Assembly: GCF_013414345.1 (NCBI RefSeq)
Contig: NZ_CP058670.1
Span: 496,001 to 560,000, forward strand
Direction: 5' to 3'
Length of the DNA stretch: 64,000 nucleotides
DNA from: Microcella indica
GTDB taxonomy: Bacteria > Actinomycetota > Actinomycetes > Actinomycetales > Microbacteriaceae
The position numbers and the translations under genes were made by a program. Numbering within the stretch: position 1 is the first letter of the stretch; each line of letters opens with the position of its first letter. The notes under the pieces are model-generated. The model was not told the origin of the DNA. It did no database searches and saw only the letters and a program-made list of their open reading frames with translations. This document shows positions 57,098-63,008 of the stretch, one piece after another.

Positions 57098-57421
57098 TCA
57101 GCCCTGGTCGCCCGGCGATCCTGACGGTGCTTCGCCACGCTGCCGCGCGCGGTCGCCGACGGCGCGCAGGAGCTCGCCGATCGTGTGCGTGCGCTCGAGG
57201 GGGTGCCGCAGCGGCTCGTCGTCGACGACGCTGTAGCGGTTGCGTCGGCCCTCGCGCGTCTTGACGAGGTAGCCGGCCTTGACGAGCTCGGCGACGATGC
57301 GCTGCGTGCCGCGCTCGGTGATGCCGACGCGCTCGGCAATGTCGCGCATGCGCAGATCGGGGTCGTCGGAGAGGCACACGAGCACGTGCGTGTGATTCGT
57401 CAGAAACGTCCACTCGGCCAC
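57098..57421 (-). CDS. Winged-helix transcriptional regulator of the dab operon
   Basis: A 107-residue protein that is mostly one winged helix: LVCLSDDPDLRMRDIAERVGITERGTQRIVAELVKAGYLVKTREGRRNRYSVV, followed by a short dimer or ligand tail. It resembles MarR/ArsR-like one-domain regulators; no metal-binding cysteines are seen. The GTG at 57421 has TACAGT at the leaderless distance. It is divergent from dabB and a palindrome lies between, so I infer that it controls dabB-dabA. The signal could be inorganic carbon or pH. Confidence 0.82.
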   Translation of the reverse strand: MAEWTFLTNHTHVLVCLSDDPDLRMRDIAERVGITERGTQRIVAELVKAGYLVKTREGRRNRYSVVDDEPLRHPLERTHTIGELLRAVGDRARQRGEAPSGSPGDQG

Positions 57422-57427
57422 GCGACC

Positions 57428-57433
57428 ACTGTA
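57428..57433 (-). promoter_or_regulatory. -10 hexamer TACAGT for the wHTH regulator
   Basis: Six bases before the GTG on the minus strand. Confidence 0.55.
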
Positions 57434-57476
57434 CGAGCCACATCGCGCCCCGTCCGGCATCGAAATGCACGTTGTG

Positions 57477-57505
57477 CAATACGCGAACTAGCAATCGTGT
57501 ATTGT
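57477..57505. promoter_or_regulatory. dabB promoter and candidate operator
   Basis: CAATACGCGA (57477-57486) and TCGTGTATTG (57495-57504) form an inverted repeat with one mismatch and an 8-base centre. TATTGT (57500-57505) is a good -10 for dabB, with a start near 57512 and AAGGAGG at 57515-57521. The repeat therefore covers the promoter; a second smaller one, TGCAcgttgTGCA, lies just upstream. Confidence 0.6.
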
Positions 57506-57527
57506 GATGCGCGCAAGGAGGTTCTCC

Positions 57528-58916
57528 ATGTTCTCAGCCGGTACCCCCCTCGACCCTCGCGCACTGCTCGCGGTGGCACCCATGCCCCCGATCGATGGTG
57601 GCCTGTGGCGACTCGACGGCGTCGCGCTGGTGCTGCTCGTCCTCGTCGTCGGCATCGCCGCAGCCGTCGTGCCCTTCGCCCACCGCTCACTCCGCGGCGA
57701 CCGGCACGGCACTGCCCTCACGATGGCGTTGGGTGCGATGCTCGCGACGACGGCACTGCTCGCCGTCGCGGGCCCGCTCTGGATGCTCGGCCTCGCCTGG
57801 AGCGCCTCCACCGTCGCGACGCTTGTGGCCCTCGGTCTCGGCGGGGGAGTGCGCGCACTCCTTCCCGGTGCCGTATGGCTCGTCGCCGCCGACGTCGCGC
57901 TCTGGGCCGCGATCGTTCTGATGTCGCTCGGTGCCGAGGGGGATGCCGCAGCACTGCTCTTCGTGATCGCCGCCGTTCTGCGCTGTGCCCTGCCGCCCGC
58001 GCAGAGCTGGCTCGTCGGCTCTCTCTACGCTCCGACTCCCGTGAGTGCCGCTCTGCACGGCGGCATCGTGAACGGCGGGGGCATCCTCGTCATCACCCAG
58101 TTGCCCCTCATCGGCGAGAGCGCCCTGGCATCCCTCGCGCTCAGCCTCCTCGCGGCGGTCGGCCTCCTCGTCGGTGTGACGGCCTCGCTCGTGAGAACGG
58201 ACGTCAAGGGCCGACTCGTCATGTCGACCGTCGCGCAGATGGGCTTCATGCTGCTGTGCGCCGCCCTCGGCCTCGCCGCCGCCGCGCTCGTGCACCTCGT
58301 CGCCCACGGCCTGTACAAGAGCTCGCTCTTCCTCGCCTCGAGCGACGGCATCGACCGTCGCGCCTACGACCGCCGCGCCCCGGCGGTCCTCGCGCTCTCC
58401 CGCCCCAGCGCCGCGGCCCGGGCCCTCGCGGGCATCGCGCTCCCCGTGATGACACTCGCGGCCGTGGCGGTCGCGGTGTACCCGGGCGGCCGGGGCGTGC
58501 CCGAACTCCTGCTCCTCGTCGTGGTGGGCGCGGCCTTCGCCGCCGCGGGCGCCCGCGCGGCACGACTCGCCCCGAGCACCGCGCTCGCCGCCGCGTCGAC
58601 CACCCTGCTCGCGGGCGGTGCGGCGGCGTACGCACTCGCTGCATCGCTGCTCTCGGCGGTGATCACACCCGAGTCTGCGCCCGAGGCGCAGCCCGCCATC
58701 GTGGTCGTCGCGGTGCTCGCCCTCCTCCTCGTCGTCGCTCTCGGCGTCGTGCGTCGATGGTTCCCGATGAGCCGGACGGGTCTGGCCCTGCAAGCCTTCG
58801 GTCTCGGCTTCGGCGACCCTCGCGCTCGGCGTCCCGCGGGCAGAGCATCCACGGCGCGCGCGATCCCCGCATCCGACCCCCTCGGCAGCCCGCTCACGAC
58901 AGGAGCCTCGTCATGA
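57528..58916 (+). CDS. dabB: DabB: NuoL-like cation channel subunit of the DAB inorganic-carbon pump
   Basis: A 462-residue membrane protein with about 13 helices in the antiporter fold of NuoL/MrpA. LYAPTPVSAALHGGIVNGGG, STVAQMGFML and LVAHGLYKSSLF are the conserved proton-channel blocks, including the Lys of HGLYKS. Standing alone with a DUF2309 gene rather than in a complex I operon, it fits DabB, which uses the cation gradient to drive DabA. It starts at the ATG at 57528 after AAGGAGG and overlaps dabA (ATGA). The polar ~45-residue C-terminus may bind DabA. Confidence 0.88.
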   Translation: MFSAGTPLDPRALLAVAPMPPIDGGLWRLDGVALVLLVLVVGIAAAVVPFAHRSLRGDRHGTALTMALGAMLATTALLAVAGPLWMLGLAWSASTVATLVALGLGGGVRALLPGAVWLVAADVALWAAIVLMSLGAEGDAAALLFVIAAVLRCALPPAQSWLVGSLYAPTPVSAALHGGIVNGGGILVITQLPLIGESALASLALSLLAAVGLLVGVTASLVRTDVKGRLVMSTVAQMGFMLLCAALGLAAAALVHLVAHGLYKSSLFLASSDGIDRRAYDRRAPAVLALSRPSAAARALAGIALPVMTLAAVAVAVYPGGRGVPELLLLVVVGAAFAAAGARAARLAPSTALAAASTTLLAGGAAAYALAASLLSAVITPESAPEAQPAIVVVAVLALLLVVALGVVRRWFPMSRTGLALQAFGLGFGDPRARRPAGRASTARAIPASDPLGSPLTTGASS

Positions 58917-61291
58917 CCGATATCGTCGCACCCATGCGCGCGGCCCTCCGCGCCCGGGCACGCGCCGAGATCGCCGCCTCGGTGATCGCCCCGTACTACG
59001 GCCTCGACGCGGCGATCGCAGTGAACCCGCTCCTGCCCTCGCTCTCCGAGGGGTTCGCCGGTGCGGTGACGCGGGCCGCACCCGCGCTCGGAGCCCGCGG
59101 GGCGCTCTCCGAGGGGCAGTACCGCGACCTGCTCGACTCCGGTCGCATCGCGGAGGCCGACCTCGCCCAGGCGATCCGTCGCCGCGACGCCGAGTCCCCG
59201 CGGGGGGCGACCGACGCGCAGCTCGTCACGCGGTTCCTCACCCGTGCTGCCCCGCCTCCACCGCTCGAGCGGCAGCCGATCAGCGCCGTCGACGAGCGAC
59301 TCGCCCAATGGTGCCGCGCAGCGCTCGCCCCCGATGCCGCGGCGTGGCCCGTGCCCGTCGCCGAGCTCGGATACTTCGGCGCGTGGCGCGCCCTCGCGCT
59401 CCACGACGCGACCCTCCCGCGAGAGGCGAGGCGTCGCATCGCCGAACTCCCCGACGTCGCCGATCGTGCCCTCGCCACCGTTCTCGAGATCACCGACGTG
59501 AGCGAGGACGAGCAGCTCGCGCACTTTCGCGCCGGGCTCGCCCGGCTGCCCGGTTGGGCCGCCTACGTGCGATGGCGCGCCGAGACCGCGGGCGATGTGG
59601 ACATCGTCGACCTCCTCGCCGTGCGCGCAGCACTCGAATGGGCACTCGACGAGCCTCGACCCATGCCCGCTGCGGGGCACGGCGACGAGGCGGGCGCCGT
59701 GCGCACGCTCGTCTGGCAGGAGGCTTTCGAGTCGGCCCCCCATCGTCGGGTGCTCGAGCAGATCACCGCATGCTCGGGTCGTCACCGTGACGCCTCGGCA
59801 CCCCGCGCTCACCTCGTCTTCTGCATCGACCCCCGCAGTGAAGGACTGCGACGGCACCTCGAGCGTCGCGGCCCCTACGCCACCTCCGGCTTCGCCGGCT
59901 TCTTCGGAATCGCCGCGCTCGTGGAGCCCCTCGCCGCGACCGAGCCCGCGGCAGCATGCCCCGTGCTGGTGACTCCCCGCTACCGCGTGGCCGAGCGACC
60001 GGCACCCGGGGCGTGGCGCGACGCCGCTCGGTTCGTGCGCTCTCTCGCCCTCCGCCGCGCCCTGCGCTCGAGCGTCAAGGCGCCCGACGCCCTTCCCGGC
60101 GCCCCGCTCGGCTGGGCCGAGGTCACCGGGTGGCTCTTGGGCCCGCGCTCGATCGCGCGCAGCCTGCTGGCCGGGCGAGCAGTGCGCGCGGGGCGCCCCG
60201 ACGATCCGGCCATGAGCGTGCCCACGCTCCTCGACCTCGATAGCGCGCTCACCCCTGAGGCGCAGCTCGACACGGCCGAGGTGATTCTGCGCACCATGGG
60301 CATGGTGGAGTCGTTCGCGCCTCTCGTCGTCTTCGTCGGCCACGGCACGTCGACGACCAACAACGCCTACCGAACGGCGCTCGACTGCGGAGCGTGCGGG
60401 GGCCACCGGGGCGCTCCCAATGCGCGGGCTGCCGCCGCGCTGCTGAACACGCCGGCGGTGCGGGTGGGACTGAGCGAGCGGGGGATCAGCATCCCTGAGG
60501 CCACCGTCTTCCTCGCCGGGGAGCACGACACGGCTACTGACGTGGTCACGCTCGCCGACCTGCACCGGCTCGAACCGGTGCGGCGCGACGCCGCCGCCGA
60601 GGTCGAGCGAGACGCTCGGGCAGCGGGGCACGACCTCGCCGCCGAACGGATGCTGGATCTGCCGGGCGCGTCTGCGCGCACGCCGGCGAGCATCGCCGCC
60701 GCTCGTCGGTCGCGGGACTGGGCTCAGGTGTACCCGGAGTGGGGTCTCGCGCGGAACGCCGCGATCGTCATCGGGCCGCGGTCGCTCACCGCGGGCGCCG
60801 ACCTCGAGCGCCGCGTCTTCCTGCACTCGTACGCGCCCGAGCACGACGCCGAGGGCACGGCGCTCGAGACGATCCTCACGGCACCGCTCGTCGTTGCGCA
60901 CTGGATCAACGCGCAGTACTACTACTCCGCCGTCGATCCCGAGGTGTTCGGCGCCGGGTCGAAGACGGTGCACAATCTCGTCGCGGGCGCTGGAGTGCTC
61001 AGCGGGCCGTCGGGAGACCTGCGACTCGGCCTGCCGTGGCAATCGGTCGGCACCCGCGACGGTCTCCACCACGAGCCCGTGCGGCTGCTCGTGGTCGTCG
61101 ACGCGCCGCGCGAGCGCATCGAGCGCATCGTCGAGCGCGCCGACGTCGTGCACGATCTCGTGCACGGCGAATGGGTGACCCTCGTGCGACCGGGCGACAC
61201 GGTCGGCGAGTGGGAGCGGTACACCCGAGCAGGGTGGCAGTCGTGGCAGCTGCCCGGCGCCGAGTGGACTGCAGGAGAGGAGGCGGCATGA
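58913..61291 (+). CDS. dabA: DabA: DUF2309 zinc protein, vectorial carbonic anhydrase-like subunit
   Basis: A 792-residue soluble or peripheral protein of the DUF2309 family. In DabA2 of Halothiobacillus the zinc/active site is C351, D353, H524 and C539. Here VFCIDPRSE gives C304 and D306, VGHGTSTTNN gives H477 and LDCGACGG gives C492, with identical spacing (173 and 15). DabA is thought to hydrate CO2 to bicarbonate in the cytoplasm, driven by DabB, so that carbon is trapped. It is translationally coupled to dabB and to the PII-like gene. Confidence 0.9.
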   Translation: MTDIVAPMRAALRARARAEIAASVIAPYYGLDAAIAVNPLLPSLSEGFAGAVTRAAPALGARGALSEGQYRDLLDSGRIAEADLAQAIRRRDAESPRGATDAQLVTRFLTRAAPPPPLERQPISAVDERLAQWCRAALAPDAAAWPVPVAELGYFGAWRALALHDATLPREARRRIAELPDVADRALATVLEITDVSEDEQLAHFRAGLARLPGWAAYVRWRAETAGDVDIVDLLAVRAALEWALDEPRPMPAAGHGDEAGAVRTLVWQEAFESAPHRRVLEQITACSGRHRDASAPRAHLVFCIDPRSEGLRRHLERRGPYATSGFAGFFGIAALVEPLAATEPAAACPVLVTPRYRVAERPAPGAWRDAARFVRSLALRRALRSSVKAPDALPGAPLGWAEVTGWLLGPRSIARSLLAGRAVRAGRPDDPAMSVPTLLDLDSALTPEAQLDTAEVILRTMGMVESFAPLVVFVGHGTSTTNNAYRTALDCGACGGHRGAPNARAAAALLNTPAVRVGLSERGISIPEATVFLAGEHDTATDVVTLADLHRLEPVRRDAAAEVERDARAAGHDLAAERMLDLPGASARTPASIAAARRSRDWAQVYPEWGLARNAAIVIGPRSLTAGADLERRVFLHSYAPEHDAEGTALETILTAPLVVAHWINAQYYYSAVDPEVFGAGSKTVHNLVAGAGVLSGPSGDLRLGLPWQSVGTRDGLHHEPVRLLVVVDAPRERIERIVERADVVHDLVHGEWVTLVRPGDTVGEWERYTRAGWQSWQLPGAEWTAGEEAA

Positions 61292-61607
61292 GCCGCGAAG
61301 CACTGACGAGGATGACCAAGATCGAGATCGTGGCGCGCACGGTCGATGCCGACGCGGTGCGCCGCCAGATCGTCGCGGCGGGAGCGACGGGCTACACGAG
61401 CCTGCCTGCGGTGGCCGGTCTCGGGCACCACTTCGCTCACGAGGGCCGGCAACTGTTCAACGACCGGGACGCGCTCACGCTCATCATCACGGTCGTGCCC
61501 GATGACCGGGCGGACGATCTCATCGAGGGTCTGCGCTCACTGCTCGACCTCACAGCGGGCGTCATGTTCGTCTCCGACACCTACGTGAGCAGACCGCACT
61601 ACTTCCG

Positions 61608-61611
<4 letters not shown>
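61288..61611 (+). CDS. PII-like regulator of the Dab system
   Basis: A 107-residue protein with the ferredoxin-like PII fold: [41 protein letters not shown] matches the first strand, helix and T-loop region, and [24 protein letters not shown] the second half. The T-loop is short and lacks the GlnB uridylation Tyr context. PII-like proteins beside DUF2309 and SbtA transporters bind nucleotides and tune carbon uptake; I infer that role. The ATG overlaps the dabA stop, and its TAG stop overlaps the fumC stop on the other strand. Confidence 0.85.

Positions 61612-63008
<1,397 letters not shown>

Follow-up and report, generated by a model that had tools for sequence, protein, structure and literature searches.

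The window analysed here, a 64,000-nucleotide stretch of the Microcella indica genome (contig NZ_CP058670.1, positions 496,001 to 560,000), carries at positions 57098–61611 a DabB-DabA-PII operon for inorganic-carbon uptake and a divergent gene for a one-domain winged-helix protein, with a candidate operator between them. dabB (57528–58916, plus strand, 462 amino acids) encodes a NuoL-like membrane subunit with a short N terminus (PF00361 Proton_antipo_M, 72.9 bits) and is preceded by AAGGAGG at 57515–57521. dabA (58913–61291, plus strand, 792 amino acids) encodes a cytoplasmic subunit resembling beta-carbonic anhydrases (PF10070, 730.7 bits over residues 20–755), and the PII-like gene (61288–61611, plus strand, 107 amino acids; PF00543 P-II, 66.9 bits) encodes a homolog of CPII. 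ATGA overlaps join the three genes at 58913–58916 and 61288–61291. The winged-helix gene lies at 57098–57421 on the minus strand and has a GTG start, whereas the mechanical list of open reading frames begins the frame at an ATG at 57460. An initial annotation of the DNA had placed the four genes in just this way, and the PF10070 and PF00361 searches that it proposed bear it out, the former being the DUF2309 match expected across 58913–61291. The PII-like protein, which it had described as fused, proved to have a reading frame of its own that overlaps dabA only, and fusion to the operon proteins was rejected. NCBIfam gave nothing over cut-off for dabA, the PII-like gene or the winged-helix gene.

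On the single 2.585-Mb contig that makes up the genome, PF10070 was found once and the RuBisCO large chain (PF00016) gave zero matches, which extends to the whole genome the earlier remark that no Rubisco gene was seen. A CO2-concentrating mechanism for RuBisCO, or one of the carboxysome type, was rejected on this ground. Judged by DabA, the closest named relatives of the genome are Microcella (Microcella pacifica, 89% identical; M. alkalica; Yonghaparkia sp. Root332; M. alkaliphila).

DabA was compared with DabA2 of the Halothiobacillus neapolitanus DAB2 complex (cryo-EM structure 9rd0) at 20 catalytic, second-shell and tunnel residues. Eighteen are identical, including all five active-site residues: in a pairwise alignment, Cys304, Asp306, Arg308, His477 and Cys492 correspond to DabA2 Cys351, Asp353, Arg355, His524 and Cys539, four of them (all except the arginine) having been named beforehand in the initial annotation. 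Mutation of these DabA2 residues impaired DAB2 (PMC13144422), and the five DabA residues are invariant in 18 Microbacteriaceae sequences. Among the second-shell and tunnel residues 13 of 15 are identical, Arg653 and Val696 of DabA2 being replaced by Tyr607 and Ala650; Leu612 corresponds to DabA2 Leu658, the residue that takes the place of the usual carbonic-anhydrase glutamine. The finger glutamate (DabA2 Glu444), misplaced by the pairwise alignment, is Glu403 in a multiple alignment of DAB2 with 11 of the 18 Microbacteriaceae DabA sequences, and is invariant in all 18. Altogether, 16 of the 20 compared positions belong to the invariant list of these 18 sequences.

In DabB, the seven proton-path residues that have been mutated in DabB2 (S256, H260, K310, S316, H339, H343 and K347) are conserved in 20/20 sequences. 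Lys235 of DabB2, which forms an ion pair with Asp185, is Arg in 20/20, the Asp185 region lying outside the printed alignment. Relative to DabB2, a protein of 15 transmembrane helices, the core match is shifted by 83 residues toward the N terminus. Microcella DabB proteins have 440–462 amino acids (six of seven measured) and those of other family members 484–526, except two of one genome at 451, as counted from start codons picked by hand. An AlphaFold model (pLDDT 82, with low confidence in roughly 23 N-terminal and 35 C-terminal residues) forms a helical bundle matching NuoL with a TM-score of about 0.55 to query length. DabB is read as a form in which some of the N-terminal helices are missing, a loss that does not touch the conserved proton path. 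In one metagenome-assembled Microcella (G189, L025:7488-8966), the dabB frame stops early without overlapping dabA, through either a frameshift or an assembly error.

The elements shared with DAB2/DAC comprise the DabA zinc site, the Asp-Arg dyad, the finger glutamate and the DabB proton path, whereas the Microcella system differs in its shorter DabB, in Arg for Lys235 and Tyr for Arg653, in the divergent regulator and CPII gene, and in a host without a RuBisCO large chain. Starting at residue 7, the PII-like protein matches the chains of CPII (5d4n) through to its C terminus (E = 3e-15 as a single sequence, 2e-21 with a profile of 18) and by sequence is a full-length CPII homolog; we take the 5d4n protein to be from Thiomonas intermedia. 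CPII has been described as carboxysome-associated, whereas the homolog here accompanies DAB, and its host has no RuBisCO large chain.

The divergent regulator, of about 107 amino acids, bears the signature WTFLTNH.HVL ... GRRN.Y ... LRHPL. It matches HTH_24 (35.1 bits) and MarR_2 (34.0 bits against a cut-off of 27), and its AlphaFold model (pLDDT 82) is a predicted winged helix with MarR HcaR and AspA as the closest folds. As a single domain with a TM-score of 0.54 to query length, it falls short of the complete dimer fold of MarR proteins, which spans about 140 residues, and is not classed as a classical MarR protein.

Linkage of this regulator to DAB is conserved. DabA was found in 19 of 398 Microbacteriaceae genomes (20 loci), and a regulator homolog stands divergent beside dabB at 20/20 of these loci. 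In a wider set of named DAB loci (the best 80 of 225), which includes Mycobacterium/Mycolicibacterium, Cryobacterium, Rhodococcus, Arthrobacter, Subtercola and others, a divergent regulator lies within 500 bp of dabB in 48 loci and at 0.5–3 kb in 10; it is elsewhere on the contig in 10, was not found in 10 (two of them at contig ends), and the remaining two contigs have no dabB. The PII gene follows dabA in 72 of the 80 (partial in some), and several contigs among the other eight end at dabA. Across Actinomycetota, DabA is present in 23 of 396 genomes, the window's own counted, and in a phylum sample of 28 loci PII was found in five and the regulator in two. The window regulator used as query gave 29 matches in 22 genomes: 20 at DAB, three at sbtA, one at a dab site emptied of its genes, two beside P-type ATPase genes (one verified by Pfam, one by eye), one beside TerC, one among unclear genes and one weak. 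The family is not exclusive to DAB: members also neighbor sbtA and, in a small number of genomes, TerC or P-type ATPase genes.

The region between regulator and dabB contains a conserved dyad. A palindrome search with arms of 9 and a gap of 8 in 52 non-redundant regulator–dabB regions (of 68) yielded the consensus AATACACGA-N8-TCGTGTATT, learned from DAB loci only, at 15.1 bits per sequence versus 7.1 in 20 shuffled sets (standard deviation 0.18, highest 7.6); this procedure gives each of the 52 regions a site, which looks poor in several distant metagenome loci. In the window, the candidate operator AATACGCGA-actagcaa-TCGTGTATT occupies 57478–57503 (no strand assigned). A matrix of 21 DAB sites scores it at 28.5 bits, the next best position in the window reaching 8.5, and a matrix made without any Microcella still gives 25.8 versus 9.5 bits. 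Its arms are complementary at 8/9 pairs, compared with a mean of 5.2/9 for the 21 training sites and 2.2/9 for other positions. The genome of M. indica holds this one site with no mismatch to the pattern, none with one or two mismatches and five with three. Among the 68 of the 80 named loci that were scored (the rest being training loci by name, without dabB or too near a contig end), a dyad of at least 8 bits lies upstream of dabB in 62, versus 36 of 2544 other windows; some of the 68 are copies of training contigs. A weaker dyad (57464–57489, no strand assigned; 6.2 bits, three mismatches) overlaps the main one 14 bp upstream, and four Mycolicibacterium/Mycobacterium loci that were examined have stronger overlapping sites just before dabB, mostly in 14-bp steps.

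The same regulator family and dyad recur at genes for a Na+/bicarbonate transporter, SbtA (PF05982), which in Microcella without dab genes is divergent from regulator paralogs. Of 41 sbtA matches listed, 30 loci were examined with 1.5-kb flanks covered, and a member of the regulator family lies within 1.5 kb of sbtA in 25, one being a fragment at a contig end. When only the DNA upstream of the regulator was scanned, it contained the highest-scoring site of the whole locus in 8 of 24 sbtA loci; a clear signal emerged only upstream of sbtA itself. In the roughly 160 bp upstream of sbtA, a measurement chosen after that result and made on a set free of training contigs, a dyad of at least 8 bits is present in 18 of 30 loci, compared with 10 of 703 windows taken elsewhere in these loci, and one of at least 12 bits in 8 of 30 versus 0 of 703. 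No dyad was found upstream of four paralogous regulators (two at P-type ATPase genes, one at TerC, one at unclear genes), where the best scores ranged from −5.9 to −10.0 bits; one of the loci with an unlinked paralog has a 14.1-bit match far from the paralog.

DAB and SbtA replace each other within Microcella. Ten genomes were drawn, of which seven have DAB without SbtA and three SbtA without DAB, never both; this corresponds to 1 in 120 by hand calculation if the genomes are taken as independent, which they are not. In a tree built from three neighboring proteins, the SbtA genomes fall at two places, G137 with G310 (support 100) and G275 beside the DAB-bearing G189 (support 80). At the level of the family (SbtA in 37 of 398 genomes, DAB in 19 of 398) the overlap of 0 does not differ significantly from the approximately 1.8 expected, and exclusivity beyond chance was rejected there; it is claimed for Microcella alone, from these ten genomes and two tree positions. 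In G275 (L041:9153-9485), a deletion scar is seen in which an intact 110-amino-acid regulator gene adjoins the fumarase-like gene, dabBA-PII and the dyad being missing, and in G137 and G310 (L042:5243-6819, L043:4676-6258) the dab site holds a PadR-like regulator and a membrane protein, both named by eye. G137 also has a match to the RuBisCO large-chain family (C1:362987-363814, E = 8.7e-65), which is either a true RuBisCO or a RuBisCO-like protein.

In M. indica, the operon is followed by a convergent gene of the fumarase/aspartase family (61608–63008, minus strand; Lyase_1 and FumaraseC_C) and, two genes downstream, by the only beta-carbonic anhydrase gene of the genome (63106–63744, minus strand; Pro_CA, sole PF00484 match); neither this enzyme nor the short dabB had figured in the initial annotation. 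A PhoH-like gene and the fumarase-like and beta-carbonic anhydrase genes flank the cassette in 7/7 Microcella, and in other genera, on contigs long enough, these neighbors were not found, bar one weak carbonic anhydrase match. This difference in neighbors suggests that the four genes travel together, and they seem to move as one unit. In Mycolicibacterium iranicum (L112, 6348-8342) and similar Mycolicibacterium loci, the cassette is larger, with TerC and a CBS-domain gene between regulator and dabB and a beta-carbonic anhydrase gene after PII; the combination of CBS domains with CPII would suggest adenylate sensing. In 29 of the 80 named loci, dabA has a beta-carbonic anhydrase gene on its own strand no more than 1.5 kb after it, and each of the 22 genomes examined, of which 19 have DAB, encodes at least one such enzyme. 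Coexistence of DAB and carbonic anhydrase is the rule in these genomes, contrary to the statement that MpsAB and carbonic anhydrase rarely coexist in one species (PMC8567241, in excerpt).

Gene identities, conserved residues, regulator linkage, the conservation of the dyad and its presence at sbtA, and the replacement pattern point, with a probability of roughly 70%, to a DAB complex under a dedicated winged-helix repressor–operator switch that is shared with SbtA and feeds carboxylases in a heterotroph. DabB would admit protons and DabA would use that drive for one-way hydration of CO2, so that HCO3− is trapped in the cytoplasm, and the CPII-like protein may sense the bicarbonate/adenylate state and trim DAB activity. 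The divergent winged-helix protein would bind the dyad at 57478–57503 and control dabBA-PII, and probably its own gene. Because the dyad lies between divergent genes, a repressor released when inorganic carbon is scarce is favored. In relatives, the same regulator family and dyad would control SbtA, and the two uptake systems would replace each other in what may be an inorganic-carbon-uptake switch of heterotrophic Actinobacteria, supplying bicarbonate-using carboxylases. The regulator link offered in the initial annotation gains from the conserved linkage and dyad, DNA binding itself being presumed; the role it suggested, serving anaplerotic carboxylation, is plausible.

Several observations weigh against this interpretation. 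In the training set of 21 sites, the two arms pair on average at only 5.2 of 9 positions, and neither the shuffles nor the window controls remove the shared ancestry of the DAB sequences. With up to three mismatches the pattern occurs 341 times in 26 genomes versus 270 for a reversed control (6 versus 8 in the M. indica genome), so that only near-perfect sites are informative, and 12 of the 30 sbtA loci have no dyad of 8 bits. No sigma-70-like promoter was found at 57380–57600, where a terminator scan was also empty; this leaves room for activation instead of repression. DabA has Tyr607 for the tunnel-gate Arg653 and Ala650 for Val696, and the cytosolic beta-carbonic anhydrase present in all 22 genomes could dissipate trapped HCO3−. 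The intact regulator frame kept by G275 after the loss of dab genes and dyad hints that the regulator may have another duty.

One addition to the switch model is that proton pumping by rhodopsin powers DAB, with light-driven carbon capture supplementing heterotrophy. DAB activity has been proposed to require proton-motive force (PMC13144422), which makes a rhodopsin link mechanistically sensible, though unproven. A search for rhodopsin (PF01036) gave matches in 115 of the 398 genomes of the family, and in 113 the match passed the family cut-off. Such matches occur in 16 of 19 genomes with DAB and 28 of 37 with SbtA (44 of 56 together), compared with 71 of 342 with neither (Fisher's test, 6e-17, kinship ignored), and in 16 of 20 dissolved-inorganic-carbon (DIC) genera versus 12 of 65 others, the genus count being the only control for phylogeny. 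All ten Microcella genomes drawn have a match. The copy in the M. indica genome is an open frame reading ...RYIDWLLTTPLLLVEF..., presumably the Asp-Thr-Glu pattern of proton pumps; in another Microcella (G366, L197:2535-3106) the match is split over two frames and the gene is probably broken. Rhodopsin in Microcella and Yonghaparkia has been published (PMC6106888, in excerpt). In two Cryobacterium loci of 130 scanned, a rhodopsin gene lies 0.9 kb (L038:14342-15157) and 3.2 kb (L094:15918-16733) after PII, convergent with the DAB operon, and light increases anaplerotic bicarbonate fixation in Polaribacter (PMC3587595, as excerpted). Common aquatic habitat or ancestry could explain the association; 3 of 19 DAB and 9 of 37 SbtA genomes have no rhodopsin match, and many named DAB loci are mycobacterial, outside the genome-wide rhodopsin search. 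Light coupling is a doubtful extension.

Alternatively, the DAB complex could be constitutive and the regulator could serve another ion or pH response, the two being linked by chance or shared transfer. Paralogs of the regulator beside TerC and a P-type cation ATPase, and its persistence without dab in G275, favor such a duty. This explanation is unlikely given a linkage that holds at all 20 DAB loci found in the family and extends to the unrelated gene sbtA, and a dyad common to the upstream regions of dabB and sbtA that was not found upstream of the paralogs. Quite improbable is the idea that the complex is mainly a proton or sodium entry path for membrane potential, as first conceived for MpsAB, or for cytoplasm acidification in alkaliphiles, with bicarbonate secondary: M. 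alkaliphila and M. alkalica are among the named DAB-bearing relatives and MpsAB has been argued to use sodium, but DabA retains all five residues of the CO2-hydrating active site, a bicarbonate transporter takes the place of DAB in sister species, and DAB2 shows no sodium dependence (PMC13144422).

A DAB complex in a heterotroph is already known. The initial annotation fairly placed previous DAB work in autotrophs and some pathogens and overlooked that DAB/MpsAB has been published as a bicarbonate supply for anaplerosis in heterotrophs (PMC8567241; PMC6689103; both in excerpt). MpsAB of Staphylococcus aureus is likewise a DAB-type system of a heterotroph thought to supply anaplerosis; unlike Microcella, with its beta-carbonic anhydrase two genes away, S. 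aureus reportedly lacks carbonic anhydrase, and the excerpt of PMC8567241 mentions neither CPII nor a divergent regulator for it. No transcription factor assigned to DAB was found in titles and abstract openings of the DAB literature or in the part of PMC12628692 available, nor was a DAB or SbtA regulator found for Actinobacteria, judged by titles and abstract openings. Cyanobacterial SbtA/SbtB with LysR-type regulators performs the same task, inorganic-carbon uptake under carbon control; the regulators of the cyanobacterial CO2-concentrating mechanism are LysR-type, whereas the one in Microcella is a small winged-helix protein resembling MarR. What looks new is the pairing of two unrelated, mutually replacing inorganic-carbon pumps with a common operator and a dedicated small regulator of this type. 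It is possible, as a tentative generalization, that heterotrophic Actinobacteria possess an undescribed regulon in which one repressor family and operator are plugged into either proton-driven DAB or sodium-driven SbtA, swapped within genera, with rhodopsin light energy loading bicarbonate for anaplerosis.

Control of bicarbonate supply in heterotrophs is little known. As a marker of DAB and SbtA operons alike, a single regulator–operator pair provides a handle for finding inorganic-carbon uptake genes and opens the question of a CO2 or bicarbonate signal. Microcella offers a single genus in which to test the interchangeability of the two pumps and a possible use of rhodopsin light energy for carbon capture.

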